Both the position numbers and the translations under genes were made by a program. The notes under the pieces were generated by a model. The model made no database searches and was not told the DNA's origin. It worked only from the letters and a program-made list of their open reading frames with translations. Shown one piece after another: positions 856 to 12,083 of a stretch of DNA of 12,083 bases. Position 1 is the first letter of the stretch; each line of letters starts with the position of its first letter. This stretch comes from Oscillospiraceae bacterium (GTDB lineage Bacteria; Bacillota; Clostridia; Oscillospirales; Ruminococcaceae): assembly GCA_031281115.1 (NCBI GenBank), contig JAITFV010000132.1, positions 1 to 12,083 of the forward strand. The letters run 5' to 3'.

Positions 856-974
856 TATTTTTAATATCAATGTGAACACTTGCAAACAAACGCTAACAAT
901 ATAACCAAAGAGATAACCCGCTTAAATTTAATGTCTAAGCGGATTTTGCTTTAATAATGCACTCTTTTTCACGA

Positions 975-1046
<72 letters not shown>

Positions 1047-1218
1047 ATGTTTTTTGCGAACCTTGTAAAATCGCTCTGTGACGCTGTTTATTGGCTTTGC
1101 TGCTTGCGTATGCGGTTTGGAAAGTACCCAGATTGGGGGGTCTTTCCGTGCTATAGGTGACCCCCAAAAACCCCGGCATAAAATTCTAAAAGTACAGATG
1201 CTGCCAAAACACCCTATA
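1047..1218 (-). other. Transcribed 5' leader of tRNA-Trp with a GC-rich hairpin
   Basis: About 165 bases separate the tRNA promoter from the mature 5' end. No credible reading frame was found. The one structure is a hairpin TTGGGGGGTC (1133-1142) / GACCCCCAA (1159-1167) with a 16-base loop, lacking a T-run on either strand and therefore not an obvious terminator. It may simply be processed away, or it may be an unrecognised small RNA. Confidence 0.35.
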
Positions 1219-1305: not shown

Positions 1306-2139
1306 TTAATATATTCCCCCTTTTTTATTCTTTCTGCTGAACATCGCGACTTCTTGGTTTTTCGCGCTTTTTTTACGCAGATATTCTGCCTTGTTTTCGG
1401 AAAAGCTCGCATCTCTTTTAAGAGATAGGTAGCTTTCCCAGTGCTCCCGCAGCAGTTCGCCGCTTCCGAGTGCAGCTTTTCCCACCCCCGACGAGCCGAG
1501 AAGGATAAGCGTTTTCTTAGGTTTTAAGTAATCTTGAAGTTCGGTCAAACCTTGTCCCGTAAGCGCGCTTATTACGTAAACACCTGCTTTTTTCGCTAAT
1601 TTTTCTGCTGCTTTCAATTGTCCGTTATAATCTTCAATCAAGTCTGCTTTCGTGAGAATTACAGCGGGGACTGCGCCGCTTTGCCAAGCGATTGCTAAAT
1701 AGCGTTCGAGCCGCTTTAAATTAAAATCGCGGTTGAGCGACTGCATTATAAATACACAGTCGAAGTTTGCGGCGATTGCCTGTTCACCCTGCCCGGGCGT
1801 CGGGTCGCGACGGGATAAGAATGTCTTGCGCTGCAGAGTTTTGATTATCCGGCTGTCGCCGTTTTTGTTATAATCATACTGTTTCTGAACAAACAAAATT
1901 TGTTCAGAAACAGGGATTGCGCCGTTGTAATCAATCATCACAAAGTCGCCCGTTGTGGGATATTCTTCGCCGGACTGATTAAAATACACGCTGCTTTTTA
2001 GTTTGCCGGAAACATGACCGTGCCCGCAAATTAATTCATAACGCCCGCGGTGAACGGCGGTGACCCGCGCAGGGATTCCTGTAGCGTCTTCCGGCAAAAA
2101 AGTCGGGGTAAAGCCGTAATTAAATAAGTCTGTTTTCAA
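1306..2139 (-). CDS. rsgA: RsgA-like ribosome-associated GTPase with internal in-frame deletion
   Basis: RsgA is a circularly permuted GTPase that helps mature the 30S ribosomal subunit. This 277-residue frame has the N-terminal OB-fold region (about 20-85), then the permuted G domain: RLERYLA (143-149), G4 as TKAD (163-166, normally NKxD), G5 SAL (191-193) and G1 GSSGVGK (215-221). Directly after that lysine the sequence jumps to AALGSGELL and a C-terminal helix region (HWESYLSLKRDASF, KAEYLRKKSA) that normally follows the zinc-binding Cys/His segment. The switch regions, G3 DTPG and the Cys-His-Cys zinc site are missing. About 80 residues have been lost compared with the usual ~350. GTP hydrolysis should therefore be abolished although the frame stays open. 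The start is TTG at 2139, chosen because AAGGAG lies seven bases upstream. Expression is probably controlled by the leader/attenuator at 2203-2384. A weak hairpin (CACGG/CCGTG, 1266-1284) follows the stop. Confidence 0.85.
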   Translation of the reverse strand: MKTDLFNYGFTPTFLPEDATGIPARVTAVHRGRYELICGHGHVSGKLKSSVYFNQSGEEYPTTGDFVMIDYNGAIPVSEQILFVQKQYDYNKNGDSRIIKTLQRKTFLSRRDPTPGQGEQAIAANFDCVFIMQSLNRDFNLKRLERYLAIAWQSGAVPAVILTKADLIEDYNGQLKAAEKLAKKAGVYVISALTGQGLTELQDYLKPKKTLILLGSSGVGKAALGSGELLREHWESYLSLKRDASFSENKAEYLRKKSAKNQEVAMFSRKNKKGGIY

Positions 2140-2202: not shown

Positions 2203-2245
2203 CGCACAAAAATACCGTATAAAGCAACAATGCCTTATACGGTAT
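2203..2245 (-). terminator. Intrinsic terminator in the leader of the RsgA-like gene (attenuator)
   Basis: On the minus strand, a 15-bp stem (2245-2231 with 2226-2212, one G-U pair) closes a four-base loop. It is followed by TTTTTGT. It lies between the leader ORF and the RsgA-like start, about 65 bases before the latter, so the downstream gene needs read-through. Its 3' arm can pair instead with the end of the leader ORF. Confidence 0.85.
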
Positions 2246-2269
2246 GTATAATTCAGGTTGTTACTTTAT
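2219..2269 (-). promoter_or_regulatory. Predicted antiterminator: leader-ORF stop region pairs with terminator 3' arm
   Basis: In the RNA, AUAAAGUAACAA (2269-2258, containing the leader stop codon UAA) is complementary over 12 bases, with one G-U, to UUGUUGCUUUAU (2230-2219), which is the loop and 3' arm of the terminator. A ribosome that reaches the stop codon would cover the first strand and let the terminator form. A ribosome stalled earlier in the ORF would leave it free to pair and allow read-through. The pairing is seen in the sequence; the regulatory logic is inferred from known leader-peptide attenuators. Confidence 0.65.
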
Positions 2270-2320
2270 TAGCACAGCAAAGCCGAAGGGCATGAACCCT
2301 CGCAAATGATTCAATTTCAT
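2261..2320 (-). CDS. 19-codon leader peptide ORF
   Basis: A short ORF, MKLNHLRGFMPFGFAVLIK, starting at ATG 2320 with AAAGGAG nine bases upstream and ending in TAA at 2263-2261. It sits between a strong promoter (2356-2384) and an intrinsic terminator (2203-2245), with nothing else in that transcript. It has no signal peptide or cysteine pattern pointing to a secreted or toxic peptide. The coupling of its stop region to the terminator arm suggests that translation itself is the signal, as in leader peptides of antibiotic-inducible ribosome-protection and methylase genes. The residues G-F-M-P-F-G-F would be the natural place for a stall. A stand-alone small protein cannot be excluded. Confidence 0.65.
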   Translation of the reverse strand: MKLNHLRGFMPFGFAVLIK

Positions 2321-2355
2321 AAAACACATCTCCTTTCAAAACAGGAATTGCTTAC

Positions 2356-2384
2356 AGTATAACATAAAACAACCGGTTTGTCAA
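2356..2384 (-). promoter_or_regulatory. Promoter of the leader peptide / RsgA-like transcript
   Basis: Minus-strand -35 TTGACA (2384-2379), 17-bp spacer and -10 TATACT (2361-2356). The start would fall near 2350, some 30 bases before the leader ATG. Confidence 0.8.
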
Positions 2385-3889: not shown

Positions 3890-4007
3890 GTTAAAACCGC
3901 CAAAGGCGGCTTGACTTGACTGCATAGCTGATTGTCCGTGCTGATGGCACGACGGCAAGCGCCGCTTGCCGAGAAAACACTTTAGTGTTTTCAATTTAAT
4001 CAGCTAT
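3890..4007. repeat. Cloverleaf-like multi-hairpin element before the metallothionein-like gene
   Basis: An outer 10-bp stem ATAGCTGATT (3924-3933) / AATCAGCTAT (3998-4007) encloses three perfect hairpins. These are CGTGC-TGATG-GCACG (3937-3951), CGGCAAGC-GCC-GCTTGCCG (3953-3971) and GAAAACACT-TT-AGTGTTTTC (3973-3992). A fourth hairpin centred on CCGCC-AAA-GGCGG (3898-3910), extended by AAGTTAA/TTGACTT, lies just before. It is noncoding, sits between two divergent genes, and resembles the elements at 4239-4377 and 5292-5430 in architecture but not in sequence. It could be a non-autonomous repeat or a structured 5' leader. Confidence 0.65.
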
Positions 4008-4043
4008 ATAACCAAGTATAACATACGAAAGGAGGTCTGTCAA

Positions 4044-4187
4044 ATGAAAAGGTACATAAAGCTTCACATGATTGAAGACGGCAGCTGCAATAATCCGCAT
4101 TGTAAGTGTCCTGACTGTAAATGCGGCGACAACTGTAAGTGTGCTCCGGGCGAGCCATGTCCCTGCGGATGCGATTGCCACAAATAG
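4044..4187 (+). CDS. Metallothionein-like cysteine-rich small protein
   Basis: 47 residues with 11 cysteines (15, 20, 22, 25, 27, 31, 33, 39, 41, 43, 45) and histidines at 8, 19 and 46. Eight of the cysteines fall in CxC steps (20/22, 25/27, 31/33, then 39/41/43/45), the arrangement that lets metallothioneins wrap a cluster of Zn, Cd or Cu(I). The first 14 residues lack cysteine. I chose ATG 4044 because AAAGGAGG lies eight bases upstream; the frame is open further back, but that sequence is the cloverleaf repeat. It does not match the cyanobacterial SmtA pattern closely, so the family name is descriptive. Placement near cutA and a thiol-type HxlR regulator hints at metal or redox handling. 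No clear terminator follows. Confidence 0.75.
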   Translation: MKRYIKLHMIEDGSCNNPHCKCPDCKCGDNCKCAPGEPCPCGCDCHK

Positions 4188-5433: not shown

Positions 5434-6783
5434 TTATTCCTGAGTTAATTCATAAGTTATCTTCATTGTGTTCAGCGCGTTTTTCGTGACAGGGGTATGA
5501 AGGTTATTGATTGTCGCCATGTAAGGGGTTATATAGCCGATATATTTGGTATGAAAATTTGAAGTCTGTTCGTGAAGCAATGCTATCAGCGGATACTTCA
5601 GGCTTGCCGAATTAAACAGATTCGGCATATTTATGTTATCGTTGCCTAATTGTGTAATTACGCTCTTAAAACCGTCATTAATAAACAATCCCGTGTTTGA
5701 AACAAACGGGCTAATCAAGTATTCTCCCCCGATGCAGACATATCTTCCGCTGATAGGAGCGTCAGAAACATTCCTTATAAAATTGCCGCTGTCATCTACT
5801 TCCATGATTCTGCCGGCTGTACTGTTTACATAAAGTTTATTTTTGAAAAAAGCTGTCGATGAGTTTGCTTGTATGCTTACGTTGAGCGGAATTATTTTAT
5901 CTTCAATTATTGTTTTTGTAATAAGGTTTACGGTTCTGATTCTCGCCGCTCCGCTGCCTCCGCTCGGAAGTGAAACGTGAACTAAATTATTGTTTTTATC
6001 AATTATGTGAGAGTTGAAAAGACTATTGAAGCGGGAGTCAGACTGAACTGAAAAAACATCTTCTCTGCAGTGAGTCGGAGAGGATGTGAGCAACCCTGCG
6101 CCGTTTAAAATACTCAGCGAAGAAGGATTTGCAAATGATTGCTCAAGAATTGTAAGAGCATTGTCATTCCTGTCTAAAACATATGTGTGGATTCCCCGGC
6201 GTAATTCACCGACATAAGACACTAACACGTTCGTGAATGTATTAATACTGCTCGGCGCAAAGCCCACAATATTTTGATTTATATTATCAATATTTATGCG
6301 TTGCCTGAAAAACGTACCTGCCTCCCACGGTGTCATCCAACCTCTGTCGCCGCCCGCAACCGATGTCAGTGAAATCGAATTTATAACACTGTTAGCTTTA
6401 TCTGTTGCGAAGTCCCATACCATTTTTACGCCGTTGCTGCGGATTTCGGTTTCGTTTTCATTCCAACACCCGCGGAGCGGATTTGCACCCCCGTAATTAC
6501 CGCCCGCGTGACCCACGCAATTAATTCCGGGAGGAGGTAAAATATTATTGACGTTTTCGTTAACTATGCTATCCCAAAGTAAAATTCCGCGTAAATACTG
6601 CGGATAAAGCGGCGTCAGCCGCGCCAGCATATCGCTTATCGAAACTCCGGATGCCAGCATTTCTCCGTTCCAGTCGAACATATTACGTATTGCGTCAGTG
6701 ACGATATTTTCGTCTTTGTATTCCTCTTTCTTTTTACCTGTAATACTGTCAAAAAGTTCTATGGTTGATTTTCCCTTTATCAT
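5434..6783 (-). CDS. Phage tail-fibre / receptor-binding-type structural protein
   Basis: 449 residues from ATG 6783, chosen because AGGAG lies seven bases upstream; an in-frame ATG at 6801 overlapping the previous stop is less well placed. The N-terminus (KGKSTIELFDSITGKKKEEY followed by DENIVTDAIRN) is the kind of conserved attachment segment seen in Clostridia siphophage tail-tip proteins. The middle has Gly/Asn-rich repeats and the long C-terminal half (YVLDRNDNALTILEQ, RFNSLFNSHIIDKNN) looks beta-rich, consistent with a receptor-binding or propeller-like region. It is the last gene of the tail operon, where fibre genes usually sit. No chaperone, holin or lysin follows; a terminator ends transcription at 5251-5287. 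The receptor cannot be predicted. Confidence 0.65.
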   Translation of the reverse strand: MIKGKSTIELFDSITGKKKEEYKDENIVTDAIRNMFDWNGEMLASGVSISDMLARLTPLYPQYLRGILLWDSIVNENVNNILPPPGINCVGHAGGNYGGANPLRGCWNENETEIRSNGVKMVWDFATDKANSVINSISLTSVAGGDRGWMTPWEAGTFFRQRINIDNINQNIVGFAPSSINTFTNVLVSYVGELRRGIHTYVLDRNDNALTILEQSFANPSSLSILNGAGLLTSSPTHCREDVFSVQSDSRFNSLFNSHIIDKNNNLVHVSLPSGGSGAARIRTVNLITKTIIEDKIIPLNVSIQANSSTAFFKNKLYVNSTAGRIMEVDDSGNFIRNVSDAPISGRYVCIGGEYLISPFVSNTGLFINDGFKSVITQLGNDNINMPNLFNSASLKYPLIALLHEQTSNFHTKYIGYITPYMATINNLHTPVTKNALNTMKITYELTQE

Positions 6784-6797
6784 TTTATGTCTCCTCA

Positions 6798-8732
6798 TCA
6801 TGTGTTAGTATCAAGGTTTAAAATATAATTAAACGATTGCAGCTGATTTCTTGTCAGCGCGCTTAAAAGATTGCCGAAGACCATATCATATTTTACAACC
6901 AGCTCGTTATATTGATTCAAATTTTCTTTGATTGTTAAAATTATCTCTCTGCCTTTTATTTCAATTGATTGAATTGAAAGCTCAATAATTCCGAACGAAA
7001 CAATAAACGCGTTGAAATCAATTGTATCCCCGTCAGGAGTTACGGCGTTTGTAAAAACAAGCAATATTTCATGTGTGGAAATCTTTTTCGCACTCTCGAA
7101 AATTGAATCAATCAGGACCCTTGCCGAAAACTTCAGAAGTGTCGGGCTCAAAGGCTTTATCGCTATATTTTCAATGCTGTGAAATAATGATTTCGGCATC
7201 GGTATTTGAAGCTCCGGTTCCACAAGTTTTCCCGATAATTTAGGAATTGTGATATTTATTAATCTAAGCTCATTTTTTTCGATGCACTGTGATATGTTTA
7301 TCTCCGGTCTTTGCGGGCCGCCGTCGCCGAGCATATATTGCCCGCTGAGAGAAGCTATCAGCTCGCCTTTAAAAATTAACGCATTCCCTGCACTAACTTT
7401 AGCCGTGAGTATGAGCGTATTTCTTCCCGGACGCATAACTCTGAAGCAATTATATAAACAAATGCTTTTAATTTCCGATTTTTTCAAAGTTGTTTCCGGC
7501 GTCTGTCCAACCTTCACGTTATTAATGAAATACTCAAGTTCCATTATGCAATCTTCGTTCGCCGTAACAGAAAACTGCGAATTAAATACCGCGAATGTTC
7601 TCGTTTCAAGGTTGAAATTTAAAGACGCGAGCGCAGCCGGAACTCCCCCGATTAAAATATCTTCTTTGTTCTCGCAGTTAATATACGTTACGCGCAGATT
7701 TTGGCTCAGCTCTTCAATCATTCTCTGCCGCGTCATCGGTTCGTCGTAATCGTCAAGAGGGTTTTTCGTTTTTGAAACAAGTCTTCCGGTAAGCCCGCCG
7801 TCGTATGTCAGAGTATAATCGCTGATTAATGCAAGATAGTGCGAATTTTCAAAATCATCCTGCACTAAAATTGCATCACCCGATTCAAGAAACGGAAGCC
7901 CCCGCATTTTTACTGTCAGCCCGTGATATTGAAATCCGTTCCAATGATTAAATAAACGTTCTGCCGCGTCCCGGCTTCCGAAAGGGTTATATTGACGATA
8001 AGTTGATACTTTCGTGCCGTTTCCCTCGGAAAATATTTCATCTTCAACAAAAAAATCAATTTGCCGAACCTCATTTATATCGGCTTTTACCGACAGTTCC
8101 GTATACTGATTGCGGGAGAGTACGAAGTCACACAACACTAACTTTTTAAGCTGTAAAACTCCGTCCCTGCCAAACTTTGCAAACCCACCGTTAATCCCCG
8201 CGATATACCCGATTACTTCGCGGCAGGTCGCCGTTCGGGGTACGAATTCTATCTTGTCGGCTTCGGGCTCAAATCCGATTTTAAAATCATAATGCGCCGC
8301 AATATCAGCGAGAACATCACCTGCTGTGCAGGGGAAGGTTATAGCCGGATTATACCGCGAATCAAGGCGGTACATCCTGTCGTAGCAGGTGACGCTGTAC
8401 CGCTCGCGCCTGCGGTAACGCCGTGTGATGTAAAACTCGCCGAGCGTACATTCTTCAGCAACTCCGGAATTATTACCGGTTAAATCCGCGAACCCGATAA
8501 ACGGACGAATCAACGCCGAGAGCGGGATATTATGACGGCTCCAAAGCTCAAAATGAAAGCGATTGGCGCAGGTCGTCCCGAAGTTCATATCCTCAGGATG
8601 AACCACATCGTTAAACTCAAACGATAAAATATCTGCGTCTGTGTAAACCTCACCGCCGGCGAAAATTCTGCACTTTACATCACGTCCGGGAGCAAGCGAT
8701 TTTTCCAAATAACTTTGTGAAACATTAATCAT
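6798..8732 (-). CDS. Phage tail hub / tail-associated protein
   Basis: 644 residues from ATG 8732. The N-terminus MINVSQSYLEKSLAPGRDVK is typical of the Firmicutes siphophage proteins that cap the tail after the tape measure. Next come ILSFEFNDV, LGEFYITRRYRRRERYSVTC and YDRMYRLD, then an LxDIAAHYDF-type segment. This resembles the gp27-like hub fold (ring domains around the tail tube end). The C-terminal half (about 340-644) is beta-rich and shows no lysozyme or peptidase motif, so I see no built-in wall hydrolase. An in-frame GTG at 8756 has no ribosome site; the ATG at 8732 overlaps the stop of a three-codon ORF that does. The stop overlaps the next gene's alternative start as ATGA. A 200-bp gap rich in hairpins separates it from the upstream gene. 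Confidence 0.7.
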   Translation of the reverse strand: MINVSQSYLEKSLAPGRDVKCRIFAGGEVYTDADILSFEFNDVVHPEDMNFGTTCANRFHFELWSRHNIPLSALIRPFIGFADLTGNNSGVAEECTLGEFYITRRYRRRERYSVTCYDRMYRLDSRYNPAITFPCTAGDVLADIAAHYDFKIGFEPEADKIEFVPRTATCREVIGYIAGINGGFAKFGRDGVLQLKKLVLCDFVLSRNQYTELSVKADINEVRQIDFFVEDEIFSEGNGTKVSTYRQYNPFGSRDAAERLFNHWNGFQYHGLTVKMRGLPFLESGDAILVQDDFENSHYLALISDYTLTYDGGLTGRLVSKTKNPLDDYDEPMTRQRMIEELSQNLRVTYINCENKEDILIGGVPAALASLNFNLETRTFAVFNSQFSVTANEDCIMELEYFINNVKVGQTPETTLKKSEIKSICLYNCFRVMRPGRNTLILTAKVSAGNALIFKGELIASLSGQYMLGDGGPQRPEINISQCIEKNELRLINITIPKLSGKLVEPELQIPMPKSLFHSIENIAIKPLSPTLLKFSARVLIDSIFESAKKISTHEILLVFTNAVTPDGDTIDFNAFIVSFGIIELSIQSIEIKGREIILTIKENLNQYNELVVKYDMVFGNLLSALTRNQLQSFNYILNLDTNT

Positions 8733-8828
8733 ATTTTCATAAAATCCTTTCTTCACTAACAGAGGACAGCTTCGTTTTAAAACGGAGCGAAAACAACGTT
8801 TCCTCCGTTTTGGTTGTACTTTGTTTCA
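8730..8828 (-). repeat. Duplicated leader sequence, copy L, with a three-codon ORF (8740-8729)
   Basis: Two blocks match the sequence before the minor capsid gene at the right edge: 8789-8828 (34 of 40 bases identical to 12044-12083) and 8730-8756 (25 of 27 identical to 12006-12032). Both copies contain AAAGGA, four bases, then ATG AAA ATA TGA, whose stop overlaps the start of the real gene. Between the blocks copy L has 32 bases and copy R only 11. In copy L, AAAACGGAG/CTCCGTTTT and CTCCGTTTT/AAAACGAAG hairpins are mutually exclusive. Confidence 0.65.
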
Positions 8829-8841
8829 AACTTGTTATACT

Positions 8842-8935
8842 AAAATCCAATAAATCGGCTTATTGGATTTTAGGGATGGCGCTGCTGCGACAGCGCGGAA
8901 CCCTGTTATCCATTTCTTAGATGGATAACAGGGTT
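8842..8935 (-). repeat. Three-hairpin element inside the tail operon
   Basis: On the minus strand, a 15-bp hairpin AACCCTGTTATCCAT/ATGGATAACAGGGTT (8935-8899) is followed by GCGCTG-TCGCAG-CAGCGC (8896-8879) and AAAATCCAATAA/TTATTGGATTTT (8871-8842). The central hairpin is nearly the same as GCGCTGTCGCAACAGCGC in the 139-bp repeats, while the AT-rich outer hairpins differ. The first stem begins within the stop codon of the upstream gene. There is no good T-run, so attenuation or RNA processing is more likely than full termination. Confidence 0.7.
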
Positions 8936-9281
8936 ATCTCTCCTCCAGGACTAATTTCATCGCCTTATAATACGTTATTCCCTGCCGTATATAATCAGTT
9001 ACCGCGACTTGTTCTTTCATGTGAAACTGCGAGGTTGTCTGCCCGGAATCCGGATTATCATAGGTTACGCTGAAGAATATACTGTCGGTTATAGCAAAAA
9101 GACGCTGCATCTCGGAGGCGCGGAGCCCCCCTAAATAAACCGTTAGGCTTATTTTTCGGCGTACCATATCTATCAGCATCCCGCCCTCTGCGTTAAACTC
9201 TGTCTTGGTGTTCCTTGTTACACGCTTCACCTGACATGATATAACGTTAGGCAGTTTATAGTTATTAAAAAATATATCCAC
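8934..9281 (-). CDS. Small phage tail protein (DUF6711-like)
   Basis: 115 residues from a GTG at 9281 with AAAGGA seven bases upstream. The pattern fits the small proteins encoded right after the tape measure in Firmicutes siphophages: an N-terminal INxxxLPNVxS-like strand (NYKLPNVISCQVKRV), AEGGMLIDMVRRKISLTVYL (32-51), a Phe-rich FFSVTYDNPDSGQ (69-81) and a closing YKAMKLVLEER. By position it would join the tape measure end to the hub, the place of a distal tail protein; DUF6711 itself has no established function. It lies 13 bases after the tape measure gene and before a hairpin-rich gap. Confidence 0.65.
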   Translation of the reverse strand: MDIFFNNYKLPNVISCQVKRVTRNTKTEFNAEGGMLIDMVRRKISLTVYLGGLRASEMQRLFAITDSIFFSVTYDNPDSGQTTSQFHMKEQVAVTDYIRQGITYYKAMKLVLEER

Positions 9282-9294
9282 GTTTTTTCCTTTC

Positions 9295-9981
9295 TCATCG
9301 GAGCGGATTTTCTCCCCATTGTCTGTAAAGATTATTCATTGTATCAGCGATTATTTGCGTAAATTCATACTCACCGATTTTAAGCGTAACCTCAACAGGT
9401 CTTCTGCTTATATCATCCGAAATATTCACATTGTTTTGCATATTTAACGGTTCGCTTTGGTTTAATGCGCCAATTCCGCCCGCCGCTTTTAAAGCGGCGT
9501 TTTCAGATGCAGTCAGCACCGCTTCACCCTTGTGCAAAAGAGCGGGGAAATCATCGTAAGGAACGTAGCTTGTCCCCACAGCAAACGAAGGTAAATTCAG
9601 CGATGAAACTGTATTTGCAGTTTTACTTTTTTGCGTTTCTTTTGCAGCGATTTTACCCGTGACCTCGCCCACATTATCTAAATTTAATTTCGATATTTTT
9701 TCAAGTTCTTTTGAAACAGGCGTGAGCGCGCTTAAAAGCGAAGGTGCTTTGTTTTTAAGTTTATCAAAGCTTGTTCCTAATCTTTCAACAGACCTCTCCG
9801 CAAAATTAACGCTGTTCCCGAACACATCACTCAGCATTTTTGAGAAAATCTGCGCAGTATCTGCGGCGAGCCGTGTTATTGTCTGTGTGCCTTTTTCAAG
9901 CAGTGAACCCGCTTTATCAAGGTCGCCGGCTACATTATCGCTGCTGACCCGCACCTCATATACAATGCTTCCGTCAGCCAT
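9295..9981 (-). CDS. Tail tape measure protein, unusually short
   Basis: 228 residues from ATG 9981 with GGGAGGTG five bases upstream. The N-terminus MADGSIVYEVRVSSDNVAGD and LDKAGSLLEKGTQTI match the start of Firmicutes tape measure proteins. The C-terminal signature FAVGTSYVPYD (133-143) and PALLHKGEAVLTASE (146-160) matches their end. Only about 90 residues of helical, coiled-coil-like sequence lie between, where these proteins usually have several hundred, often with hydrophobic segments. Tape measure length sets tail length at roughly 0.15 nm per residue, so a working tail would be about 35 nm long. Either an in-frame internal deletion made this gene or the element builds a very short tail. 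It sits in the normal place, after the two chaperone-type genes. Confidence 0.75.
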   Translation of the reverse strand: MADGSIVYEVRVSSDNVAGDLDKAGSLLEKGTQTITRLAADTAQIFSKMLSDVFGNSVNFAERSVERLGTSFDKLKNKAPSLLSALTPVSKELEKISKLNLDNVGEVTGKIAAKETQKSKTANTVSSLNLPSFAVGTSYVPYDDFPALLHKGEAVLTASENAALKAAGGIGALNQSEPLNMQNNVNISDDISRRPVEVTLKIGEYEFTQIIADTMNNLYRQWGENPLR

Positions 9982-9985
9982 TTTT

Positions 9986-10501
9986 TCACCTCCCGATTAA
10001 TTGATTAAACAACGTTTCGAGCCCGTCGTTTAAGTCCTCCGATGTCATTGAAAGCCTCGCTTTCATTACACAAAAAAGCGCGGTGTTTTCCGGTATGCAG
10101 GAAAGCAGCGCGTAAAATTCCCGCCAGTCAATGTCATCTTTTTGCAAATCAATTCCGTATGTTTGCATAAATGCCCCGTAAATTAGCGCACCGTCATCTT
10201 CAAGAGAAAGCAAGTTTTTCCTTGCTGAAGGGGACGGTGCATTATTATTTCCTGCGCTCTCTAAAAGCGTGAATATGCCGTCCAATAGCGCGAATTTCGC
10301 AGCGCACGGGAGAAAAAGAGAACGTGTATGTGAGGTATGCGTCAAAAGTAACTTAAGCCCCGCACTCACTCGCATTCTCTCAGAAATCCCGCTATCTTTC
10401 AACAGTGCTGCCGCTCTCATCACATTCCGGAAACCTACATCCAAGTAATACTTTTTCCCACGCAAGGCAACATATTTTTTCAGTGAAAATCCGAGCTTCA
10501 T
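9986..10501 (-). CDS. Bacteriophage Gp15-family tail assembly protein
   Basis: 171 residues. The middle and C-terminal part show the Gp15 family pattern: LSLEDDGALIYGAFMQTYGI (97-116), DLQKDDIDWREFYALLSCIP (117-136) and a closing VMKARLSM. Members of this family (after Listeria phage A118 gp15) are encoded just before the tape measure and are thought to chaperone it during tail assembly. The ATG at 10501 overlaps the previous stop (ATGA) with no independent ribosome site, so translation is coupled. It ends four bases before the tape measure ATG. Confidence 0.8.
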   Translation of the reverse strand: MKLGFSLKKYVALRGKKYYLDVGFRNVMRAAALLKDSGISERMRVSAGLKLLLTHTSHTRSLFLPCAAKFALLDGIFTLLESAGNNNAPSPSARKNLLSLEDDGALIYGAFMQTYGIDLQKDDIDWREFYALLSCIPENTALFCVMKARLSMTSEDLNDGLETLFNQLIGR

Positions 10502-10821
10502 AGATATTTTTTCACTCCCTGCCTGTCTTCGTGTTTTCGCTGCCGGACAGCAAGCGGATAAATTTTTCTCTTTATTACACGTCCAAATTTCTTCATGGCT
10601 TTTTCAGGTTTCTGCATACAATAGCACAATAATTTTTCTGTGATTTCCTCCCCGAAAAGCATTAGAAACATTTCTATCGCCGCCAATCCCGCTTCATGGT
10701 TTTCCCGGGTTTTAATCAGCCTTTCATACAGCGCGCCGAGCGCGTTTTTCGCTGCTTCGCCGCTTACACATACAATAACATTTTCGTCGTCAAGTTTAAA
10801 GCGGATTTTTTTATGCGGCAT
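10498..10821 (-). CDS. Small tail assembly (chaperone-type) protein
   Basis: 107 residues from ATG 10821, which overlaps the end of the tail tube gene by 11 bases. An in-frame start farther upstream (10848) lies deeper inside that gene and is less likely. It has a short beta N-terminus (KKIRFKLDDENVIV) and a helical remainder (AAIEMFLMLFGEEITEKLLC, then RVIKRKIYPLA), matching in size and composition the protein encoded between tail tube and Gp15 in related phages, which acts with it as tail chaperone pair. No frameshift signal joining it to Gp15 is apparent; the two overlap by ATGA. Function is mainly inferred from gene order. Confidence 0.6.
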   Translation of the reverse strand: MPHKKIRFKLDDENVIVCVSGEAAKNALGALYERLIKTRENHEAGLAAIEMFLMLFGEEITEKLLCYCMQKPEKAMKKFGRVIKRKIYPLAVRQRKHEDRQGVKKYL

Positions 10822-11236
10822 TAGGTTTTCCCGCGCCTTTGAGTTCAAGTGTTACACTGTTCGGCTCATTTGCATCGCCGCCCGTCTCTTGAATTTTCGT
10901 CATTGTAACATCCCAAATAACCGTACGGTTTCCCTTTGATAACCGCAGCTTAGTTTTCCTCGCATCACCCACTCCGTAAAGAGTCTCGCGAGAAAAAATA
11001 TACTCAATTACAGGGTCGCCGGCAATGTAATCACCGCGGAAAGTTACTGTGAAATTAAGCCCCGTAACCTCGCTTGACGAGAACCCGCTATCCGATAAAT
11101 AGCTCGCTGTATAAACGTTTTCGCCAAGCGTTTGGCTGATGCTTTTGAACGCTTTTCCGAGGCTTTCCCACTTGCGTGTTCCCGCTCCGGGAGTAACATC
11201 AAGCTCGGCTTTTATTTGATTGTTTAATTCTACCAT
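10811..11236 (-). CDS. Phage major tail tube protein
   Basis: 141 residues from ATG 11236 with GGAGAGGG seven bases upstream. The sequence is typical of short siphophage tail tube proteins: an N-terminal segment ELDVTPGAGTRKWESLGKAF, the tube-forming beta strands (SSSEVTGLNFTVTFRGDYI, DPVIEYIFS) and the C-terminal SVTLELKGAGKP motif common to the family. It would polymerise as stacked hexameric rings around the tape measure. It lies between the tail terminator and the chaperone pair, the canonical place. Confidence 0.8.
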   Translation of the reverse strand: MVELNNQIKAELDVTPGAGTRKWESLGKAFKSISQTLGENVYTASYLSDSGFSSSEVTGLNFTVTFRGDYIAGDPVIEYIFSRETLYGVGDARKTKLRLSKGNRTVIWDVTMTKIQETGGDANEPNSVTLELKGAGKPNAA

Positions 11237-11256
11237 TTGTTTCCCTCTCCTGTTTT

Positions 11257-11646
11257 TTATGCCAAATAATCTATGTTAATTATAAGGCTGTAAATGTAAT
11301 CCGCGCCGCTTCTCTGCATAAATTCAGGCGCGCTTCCCATGTTTATTCCTGCGATTTTTTCATCAATTTTAATTCCGTTAATCGTTATTCCGCACACAGT
11401 CTTTGCAATTTTAAATGCAGTCTCCATCGCAGTTTGATGCTTGCCGTGCCGAATAAGAATCAATACCGGCAAACGTTGAAAAACCCCGCCATCAAGATAG
11501 ACAGACTTAGAATATCCCGGTGTGATTTCAGCGCTTATACCGCTGTTGTTCGGCGATAAACCGCCGATAGAAACAGGCGAAAAAGGACTGCATTTTTCGT
11601 TTAAATATTCAATTGTTTTTGTAAGAATCTGCGTTTCTGCTATCAT
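11257..11646 (-). CDS. Tail terminator / minor capsid protein (Minor_capsid_3-like)
   Basis: 129 residues from ATG 11646, overlapping the previous stop as ATGA. The pattern GGVFQRLPVLILIRHGKHQT (53-72), preceded by SAEITPGYSKSVYLDG and followed by a C-terminal AEFMQRSGADYIYSLIINID-like end, fits the Minor_capsid_3 family. Its members occupy the tail terminator slot and cap the head-proximal end of the tail tube. The tail tube gene follows 20 bases later. Confidence 0.75.
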   Translation of the reverse strand: MIAETQILTKTIEYLNEKCSPFSPVSIGGLSPNNSGISAEITPGYSKSVYLDGGVFQRLPVLILIRHGKHQTAMETAFKIAKTVCGITINGIKIDEKIAGINMGSAPEFMQRSGADYIYSLIINIDYLA

Positions 11647-12008
11647 TTAATTTCCTCTTTTCTAAAACCGAAAACGGCTCTCTGCAGGAATCTCCGCCGC
11701 GTAATTTCAAGCCATTTATCTCCGAAAACCGCCGCTGCCTTATGCGCCCAAAGACGCGAAGCAAGCGGGTTTTTCGACCTGTCAGCCTCTCCGAGATAAT
11801 AGGCGTGACGCGCATAATTAGTTCTCCAAACTAATTTGCCGAGAAGTAAATTACTCGCTTTATAACTTGATGCGCACAGCTCGCCCGTATCAAATTTGCA
11901 AAATTTATTGCAGTCCTCCAGTGCGGTTTTTGAAAGCTCAATTTGCGCTTCCGCAGCCGCGCCGGCGAGCCGTACTCCCAGCTTTAACATTTCTGCCGCT
12001 ACATTCAT
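11643..12008 (-). CDS. Head-tail connector / minor capsid protein (Minor_capsid_2-like)
   Basis: 121 residues from ATG 12008. The features are those of the Minor_capsid_2/HK97-gp10-type connector family: CKFDTGELCASSYKAS (DTGxLxxS, about 36-53), WRTNYARHAYYL (YAR-x-x-YY) and KNPLASRLWAHKA (NP..s.W..kA). It would sit at the head-tail joint. An upstream in-frame TTG (12035) lacks a ribosome site. The start at 12008 instead overlaps the stop of the three-codon ORF ATG AAA ATA TGA, which has AAAGGA just ahead, the same arrangement as before the hub gene. Upstream head genes lie beyond the window, and a non-coding leader occupies 12009-12083. Confidence 0.75.
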   Translation of the reverse strand: MNVAAEMLKLGVRLAGAAAEAQIELSKTALEDCNKFCKFDTGELCASSYKASNLLLGKLVWRTNYARHAYYLGEADRSKNPLASRLWAHKAAAVFGDKWLEITRRRFLQRAVFGFRKEEIK

Positions 12009-12083
12009 ATTTTCATTAAGTCCTTTCTTCACCAACGAAGAATGAAAACAACGTTTTCCCCGTTTCAGTCGTATTTTGTTTCA
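12006..12083 (-). repeat. Duplicated leader sequence, copy R, with a three-codon ORF (12016-12005)
   Basis: Partner of 8730-8828; the repeat probably continues past the right edge. It keeps the AAAGGA, the ATG AAA ATA TGA mini-ORF and the GAAAAC-GTT-GTTTTC hairpin (12044-12058), but lacks the extra hairpin seen in copy L. Confidence 0.65.

Follow-up and report, generated by a model that had tools for sequence, protein, structure and literature searches.

The window, by which we mean the whole 12,083-nucleotide stretch of DNA analysed here, carries on its minus strand a gene of 277 codons with a TTG start (2139-1306) that encodes a paralogue of RsgA. Upstream of this gene and on the same strand lies a compact leader, which begins with a sigma-70-type promoter, TTGACA-17-TATACT with an extended TG (2384-2356), agreeing with the consensus at 11 of 12 positions, and continues with a Shine-Dalgarno sequence, GAAAGGAG (2337-2330), and a 19-codon ORF (2320-2261) for the peptide MKLNHLRGFMPFGFAVLIK*. 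An intrinsic terminator of 15 pairs with a loop of 4 (2245-2212), whose stem has a folding energy of -20.4 kcal/mol and whose T tract TTTT occupies 2211-2208, separates the ORF from the gene. A preliminary description had read this locus as a leader-peptide attenuator, and the promoter, the Shine-Dalgarno-led ORF, the terminator and the RsgA-like gene are all present as it claimed. The pairing that it put forward as an antiterminator, of 2269-2258 (ataaagtaacaa) with 2230-2219 (ttgttgctttat), exists as well, with 12 base pairs, one of them G-U, at -12.4 kcal/mol. Over wider segments around it the duplex reaches -16.8 kcal/mol, a value equalled by 94 of 5000 shuffles, and the pairing goes only mildly beyond chance. 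The leader as a whole folds with z -2.48 (3 of 200 shuffles equally good), and a search of it down to E 1 found no Rfam family.

Elsewhere in the window, a tRNA-Trp (973-1047, minus strand) lies directly downstream of the RsgA-like gene behind a perfect TTGACA-17-TATAAT promoter (1247-1219). Phage structural genes, namely those for major tail, tape-measure-like, tail and minor head proteins, were recognised among 8 scanned ORFs at 5434-12035 on the minus strand, and the product of a small plus-strand ORF (3966-4187) has a cysteine-rich, metallothionein-like end (CKCPDCKCGDNCKCAPGEPCPCGCDC).

The window protein has 277 residues, against mostly about 350 in the relatives listed. Alignment with 19 relatives (alignment A1) shows a gap of about 92 residues right behind the P-loop, in which we place G2, G3 (DTPG) and the zinc cluster; a 19-residue insert is also present, and the P-loop itself and the TKAD motif are retained. 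The deletion junction is in frame, GSSGVGK / A-ALGSGELLREHWES, and falls at approximately 1476-1479 on the minus strand, a coordinate counted by hand from the protein in A1. Scores against the NCBIfam RsgA-type models are far under their cut-offs, and the Pfam cut-off for PF03193 is passed, but with coverage of positions 2-122 of 174 only. Judged by its sequence, a complete GTPase is no longer encoded by the window gene. Part of the in-frame insert is a palindromic repeat, CTGTTTCTGAACAAA-N5-TTTGTTCAGAAACAG (1879-1913, minus strand), whose arm has 20 forward and 17 reverse matches in the genome at up to 2 mismatches, compared with 6 and 3 for the backward control; both arms are exact at seven places in the genome, that of the window included. 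The full-length relatives belong to the RsgA family, as RsgA chains in the PDB are found by the A1 profile with E values down to 3.2e-46. A presumed housekeeping RsgA is encoded elsewhere in the same genome (G000:C326) and is 33% identical to the window paralogue. This genome is a draft of 333 contigs, so that an assembly fault in the window gene or its leader is possible.

Conserved leader RNA ahead of RsgA paralogues

Upstream DNA was read at the best 80 of 521 confirmed loci encoding relatives and at 12 further loci from a family search. The leader of the relatives runs, in order, through SD1 (CGAAAGG), ORF1, a CTGAATA box, hairpin A, the core AACCTTTCGTGAATAC, hairpin B and terminator C, after which a second Shine-Dalgarno sequence (SD2) and ORF2 often follow. 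The conserved core is AACCUUUCGUGAAUAC. Its exact 16-mer occurs in 8 of 391 genomes of the class, as against none for the backward control, and seven of the eight places lie just before a paralogue, the eighth being inside a coding region. With up to 3 mismatches the core is present in 34 of 100 pooled upstream sequences (the 80, the 12, the window and 7 that were found through the core itself), and the window is not among the 34. An exact 18-mer of the core had no occurrence in viral contigs, the leader DNA of L011 had no match among plasmids, and no match at the Rfam gathering score was found in the leaders of the window, nine relatives and another 12 loci; six weak Rfam matches arose in the nine relatives, none of them inside a leader. 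Reduced leaders occur among the relatives too, with ORF1 shortened to MKP* in L009, L035 and L126 and hairpin B missing in L041. A loose search found ORF2 at 33 of 53 loci, and in 22 of these 33 it overlaps the gene start in the +1 frame, possibly for translational coupling.

ORF1 is Shine-Dalgarno-led, 9-13 codons long, and ends in E-V-I-x-S-stop; examples of its peptide are MTALYEVIVS, MTVCEVIAS and MTVSMMVVET. Valine stands four codons ahead of the stop in 50 of 56 tallied ORF1s, a tally of 59 ORFs less the three MKP* ones, which includes a different and unlikely ORF chosen for L131. The codon for this valine is GTG or GTA in all 50, and in the 30 ORF1s in which glutamate precedes it the codon is always GAG. 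The absence of GAA from this position suggests that selection acts on the RNA as well as on the peptide; GAGGTGAT at the ORF1 end (GAG-GTG-ATT) is the perfect complement of the 16S 3' end ATCACCTC, the anti-Shine-Dalgarno sequence. The 59 leaders from which ORF1 was read include weak matches to the covariance model R1 described below (E up to about 0.03), and the choice of ORF in them favoured the CTGAATA box. A fairer count is that of a strict ORF1 signature, which was written from the same loci on which it was counted and which occurs in 26 of the 80 family upstream sequences (21 of the 48 nearest, L032-L079, and 5 of the 32 others, L080-L111), in 0 of 8000 shuffled sequences and on 0 of 80 reverse strands.

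RNAalifold on a plain MAFFT alignment of leaders (A2, which took in 21 of 27 chosen leaders) returned hairpins B and C. Across both, 14 of 16 pairs show changes in both partners and 94.3% of the cells pair, a level of covariation that none of 500 shuffles reached. The preliminary description had named, as a check in relatives, a conserved short ORF and a covarying terminator, and both were found ahead of RsgA paralogues. With the conserved Shine-Dalgarno-led ORF and the covarying terminators in the relatives, control of this gene family by a translation-linked attenuator is likely.

Pairings between leader segments were compared by their duplex energy with those of segments swapped in from other leaders, a test whose z ignores the relatedness of the leaders and may be inflated. 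Hairpins B, C and A gave z -12, -15 and -5.4, respectively (47 of 52 leaders; 46 for B). Outside the hairpins, SD1 pairs with the core at -10.4 kcal/mol and z -3.0 to -3.8 (47 of 52 leaders; -2.4 with other cuts), the 5' arm of hairpin A, which follows ORF1, pairs with the sequence immediately downstream of terminator C (z -4.6, 42 of 52 leaders), and the 3' end of the core pairs with the upper part of the C 5' arm (z -4.7, 36 of 52 leaders, one of 325 segment pairs tested). This last pairing excludes terminator C and is the best candidate for an antiterminator. Its energies range from -2.1 to -13.2 kcal/mol across the 19 leaders shown, so that some leaders do not have it, and in L044, from Paenibacillaceae strain CAVE-418, and in L147 the sequences differ yet stay paired. 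The swap test gave no support to two further pairings, one between the ORF1 end and hairpin A, the other between the 3' arm of A and hairpin B. A second partner of the hairpin B 3' arm is the sequence behind B (z -5.25; by eye, GTGCGC..GCGCAC in L006), and B is a possible switch in its own right.

For every ribosome state tried, the equilibrium prediction has terminator C formed at 0.84-0.88 (41 leaders), so that a switch would have to act during transcription. In transcripts ending before the 3' arm of C, the expected number of antiterminator pairs is 5.4 without a ribosome, 4.0 with SD1 masked (p 0.03), 5.6 with a ribosome midway through the ORF and 4.9 when the ORF1 stop is masked. The effect of masking SD1 is small and opposite in sense to a simple stalled-ribosome model.

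Genomic distribution and neighbouring genes

R1, a covariance model trained on leader sequences with no input from the proteins, gave 14 matches in the family (14 of 297 genomes), 15 in the class (13 of 391) and 6 in the phylum sample (6 of 398), or 34 distinct matches, as genome G360 is present in two samples. A full paralogue lies downstream of 27 of them (all 14 in the family, 12 of the 15 in the class, and L149 in the phylum sample), a remnant downstream of two (L148 and L152) and neither downstream of five (L146, L147, L150, L151 and L153). Eleven of the 34 are training leaders; the remaining 23 divide into 16 with a full paralogue, two with a remnant and five with neither. The match in L146 has no visible ORF1 and may be due to chance. 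Among the 32 distant loci (L080-L111), two have an R1 match at E <=0.01. No match at E <=1 was obtained at 11 loci with presumed housekeeping RsgA genes, and five records of a plasmid collection with GTPase relatives yielded two weak matches only (E 0.49 and 0.89), both in L160 and on the strand opposite to the gene. These results place the conserved leader before a non-housekeeping RsgA-type GTPase in Clostridia and some Bacilli.

The genes directly downstream were taken as the nearest same-strand ORF; 59 loci were viewed, many ending at the locus edge and two (L068 and L073) being near-identical, and in the 29 genes so obtained Pfam identifies GNAT in 14, methyltransferase in 4, APH in 3 and the HflX domain set in 1, the last being the gene behind the paralogue of L006, judged by its sequence. 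As a control, 43 of 51 upstream neighbours (the longest ORF near the leader on either strand) were scanned; GNAT was found in 2 of the 43, and neither APH nor methyltransferase is within the first 25 of the 70 families listed for them. The make-up of the downstream genes suggests a translation-stress or antibiotic-response operon. The GNAT protein of L147 scores far under the AAC(6') cut-offs, and the kinase of L148 is marginal for Pfam APH (23.6 vs 23.2 bits) and finds its best NCBIfam model, below cut-off, in the CotS spore-coat family, so that a resistance role is a guess.

At some loci the leader stands directly before such a gene with no paralogue between: before a GNAT gene in L147 (scanned) and in L151 and L153 (by sequence), and before a methyltransferase-like gene in L150 (by sequence). 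The downstream genes of L150-L153 were read from their sequence and from Pfam tallies that do not name members; the leader of L153 is shortened. In L148 and L152 the leader and the C-terminal codons are kept and the paralogue has internal or near-complete deletions, the N-terminal piece in L152 being read by eye. Together with the window, this makes three reduced paralogues behind such leaders, in genomes of different families.

The leader copy in the window and its alternative readings

Several features of the window leader have counterparts in the family leader. Its Shine-Dalgarno sequence is homologous to SD1 and its start codon to that of ORF1, and its terminator is a shortened terminator C. 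In a MAFFT alignment with 12 relatives, TTTGCTGTGC (2281-2272, minus strand) is a relic of the 3' arm of hairpin A, and by eye and MAFFT AATAAAGTAACAACCTGAATTATAC (2270-2246, minus strand) is a relic of the conserved core (A)AAGTAACCTTTCGTGAATACTG; the covariance model sets the core slightly more upstream. This relic contains both the stop of the 19-codon ORF and the strand of the proposed antiterminator. With filters off, R1 finds its best place in the window at 2295-2208 (14.2 bits, E 0.13), first of 23 and ahead of a next score of 9.4 bits; the genome-sample searches with R1 found nothing in the window genome. A whole-leader profile HMM built from 40 of 52 leaders matches the Shine-Dalgarno sequence and start codon (2338-2316, model positions 4-27, 1.9 bits, E 0.33), which is weak alone, and the terminator 3' arm (2228-2204, 2.0 bits, E 0.32). 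Neither match reaches the threshold for inclusion, and elsewhere (2773-2751) there is another of 1.9 bits; the two best are co-linear with the leader, an arrangement that recurs in 1 of 300 shuffled windows.

According to the MAFFT alignment, the window lacks the ORF1 coding stretch, the core tail and hairpin B, and its reading frame runs on through TTTGCTGTGC of the former hairpin A to stop in the core relic AAAGTAAC. The strict ORF1 signature is absent from the window, and no ORF2 was seen there by eye. The 19-codon ORF is accordingly not the conserved leader ORF. Its end, AVLIK*, with valine at -4, was considered as a conserved ORF1 end; MAFFT favoured loss of the ORF1 stretch, though the sequence so aligned is short and eroded. 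The 19-residue peptide, searched in plasmids, gave one match, by chance. Nor did the proposed antiterminator fare better in relatives, in which the corresponding pairing of the core start with the terminator C 3' arm does not outdo swapped combinations (z -1.3 to -1.4). What finds support in the leader-peptide attenuator described earlier is its kind, as control for the gene family; the identity of the ORF and the proposed antiterminator do not. The window leader is probably a reduced and decaying copy. With ORF1, hairpin B and the core tail lost and the GTPase broken, a regulated function in the window is doubtful, and the well-preserved promoter, Shine-Dalgarno sequence and terminator and the open frame of the gene argue against long decay. 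Our preferred reading, to which we attach good though not strong confidence, is that the leader in the window is a reduced copy, probably in decay, of an RNA that in intact relatives acts as a translation-linked attenuator of a second RsgA-type GTPase.

Two other readings concern the window alone. Its copy could be a streamlined attenuator that still works, in which a ribosome at the stop codon would cover ataaagtaacaa and let the terminator form, and one stalled earlier would free this strand to pair with the terminator loop and 3' arm. The strength of promoter, Shine-Dalgarno sequence, ORF and terminator speaks for this, as do a 12-bp pairing that is real and beats most shuffles, the reduced leaders of other relatives (L009, L035, L126 and L041), and the expected antiterminator pairs, which change in the right direction (0.36 with no ribosome, 0.56 in mid-ORF and 0 at the stop). 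We nevertheless regard both the streamlined copy and this manner of working as unlikely, given an ORF that is not ORF1, a homologous pairing without support in relatives, a terminator that prevails in equilibrium predictions for all three ribosome states tried (0.92-0.97 formed), and a would-be target gene without switch regions and zinc cluster. At the other extreme, the locus could be ordinary intergenic DNA, a promoter, a chance ORF and a terminator ahead of a pseudogene with no regulatory link. The broken gene and the lack of the conserved signature in the ORF fit that account, to which we give little weight in view of the co-linear homology to the family leader and of a strong terminator correctly placed between promoter and gene.

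Two more concern what the family leader senses. It might report a shortage of ribosomes: without initiation on ORF1, SD1 would pair with the core, the antiterminator would form and the GTPase operon would be switched on when competent 30S subunits are scarce. In its favour are the action of RsgA proteins on the 30S subunit, the RsgA/EngC identity of the solved relatives, the strong and covarying pairing of SD1 with the core, and the drop from 5.4 to 4.0 in expected antiterminator pairs when SD1 is masked. That predicted effect is small, however, the conserved peptide end would go unexplained, and SD2, which has the same sequence, could pair with the core too, though the core:SD2 pairing is not better than swapped; we hold this account possible but rather doubtful. 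A leader that imitates the RsgA-bound site of 16S rRNA, so that the paralogue would bind its own leader in autoregulation, is in our judgement highly improbable. The invariant core 8-mer GTGAATAC does occur in the 3' part of the 16S rRNA of the four leader-bearing genomes examined, within a shared stretch that reads CGTGAATAC in G540; leaders score 16.3 against the G540 16S rRNA, as compared with 14.2 for shuffles (sd 0.4), and the last 16S hairpin of L164 (GCCGTAG..CTGCGGC) resembles terminator C of some leaders. Only CGTGAATAC aligns in three alignments, however, and, being nearly invariant, it counts once, while terminator C has no counterpart in GCCGTATCGGAAGGTGCGGC, the last hairpin of the other three 16S sequences. 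With one short shared word only, this candidate was rejected.

Proposed mechanism and relation to known systems

Returning to the translation-linked attenuator, we propose that the family leader probably reads whether ribosomes translate a peptide of about ten codons. A ribosome would start on SD1 and translate the 9-13 codons of ORF1, and its presence would decide the fold of the RNA. The core segment CCUUUCG could bury SD1, and the 3' end of the core (ACUGYAA) could pair with the 5' arm of terminator C as an antiterminator; otherwise terminator C would form and end transcription. The gene under control would be the RsgA paralogue, which frequently has GNAT, methyltransferase, APH-like or HflX-like genes behind it, and ribosome inhibitors would be expected to raise read-through. 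Comparison among leaders supports ORF1, hairpins A, B and C, the SD1:core pairing and the candidate pairing of the core 3' end with the C 5' arm as the parts of this scheme; termination, read-through, the inducer and the sign of the switch we infer.

More tentatively, and with somewhat less than even confidence, we suggest that this RNA family, which has no Rfam entry at the loci tested, is the tandem-hairpin, ribosome-reading leader of an inducible ribosome-protection module. The RsgA paralogue would clear or repair 30S subunits that are faulty or carry a bound drug, its partners would be of the GNAT, APH-like, methyltransferase or HflX kinds, and in some genomes the leader would outlive the GTPase and then drive the partner genes directly (L147, L148, L150, L151, L152 and L153). 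A subfamily of spare RsgA GTPases, annotated in the entries examined only as ribosome biogenesis or small-subunit-dependent GTPases, is thereby linked to putative translation-linked control and to operons with enzymes of antibiotic-modifying types, and some of these paralogues may be 30S factors induced by stress or drugs, in parallel with HflXr on the 50S subunit. R1 provides a covariance model for finding more such operons, with the caution that the window's own leader copy is probably a relic.

Ribosome-mediated transcription attenuators control antibiotic-response genes in Bacillota, among them ABC-F genes and attenuators seen by term-seq. The family leader resembles them in its promoter, its short Shine-Dalgarno-led ORF with a conserved end, its putatively competing hairpins and terminator, and a downstream gene whose product acts on the ribosome; it differs in that the gene is an RsgA-type GTPase, in its tandem hairpins, in the pairing of SD1 with a conserved core, and in a conserved anti-Shine-Dalgarno complement near the ORF stop. 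With the erm, cat and tet leaders it shares a short leader peptide, and some of its Val/Ile-rich ends recall ErmC/ErmA as these are described, whereas control here would be mainly by terminators and the genes differ. The paralogue belongs by sequence to the same family as housekeeping RsgA/YjeQ/YloQ (TIGR00157, PF03193; PDB 5no2, 7boi, 1t9h), unlike which it is a second copy; the 11 presumed housekeeping loci gave no R1 match at E <=1. A further parallel is HflXr, the antibiotic-inducible HflX-type GTPase of Listeria, which is likewise a ribosome-associated GTPase paralogue with a leader, and L006 has an HflX-set gene downstream. The GTPase described here differs from HflXr in belonging to the RsgA family, which acts on the 30S rather than the 50S subunit.
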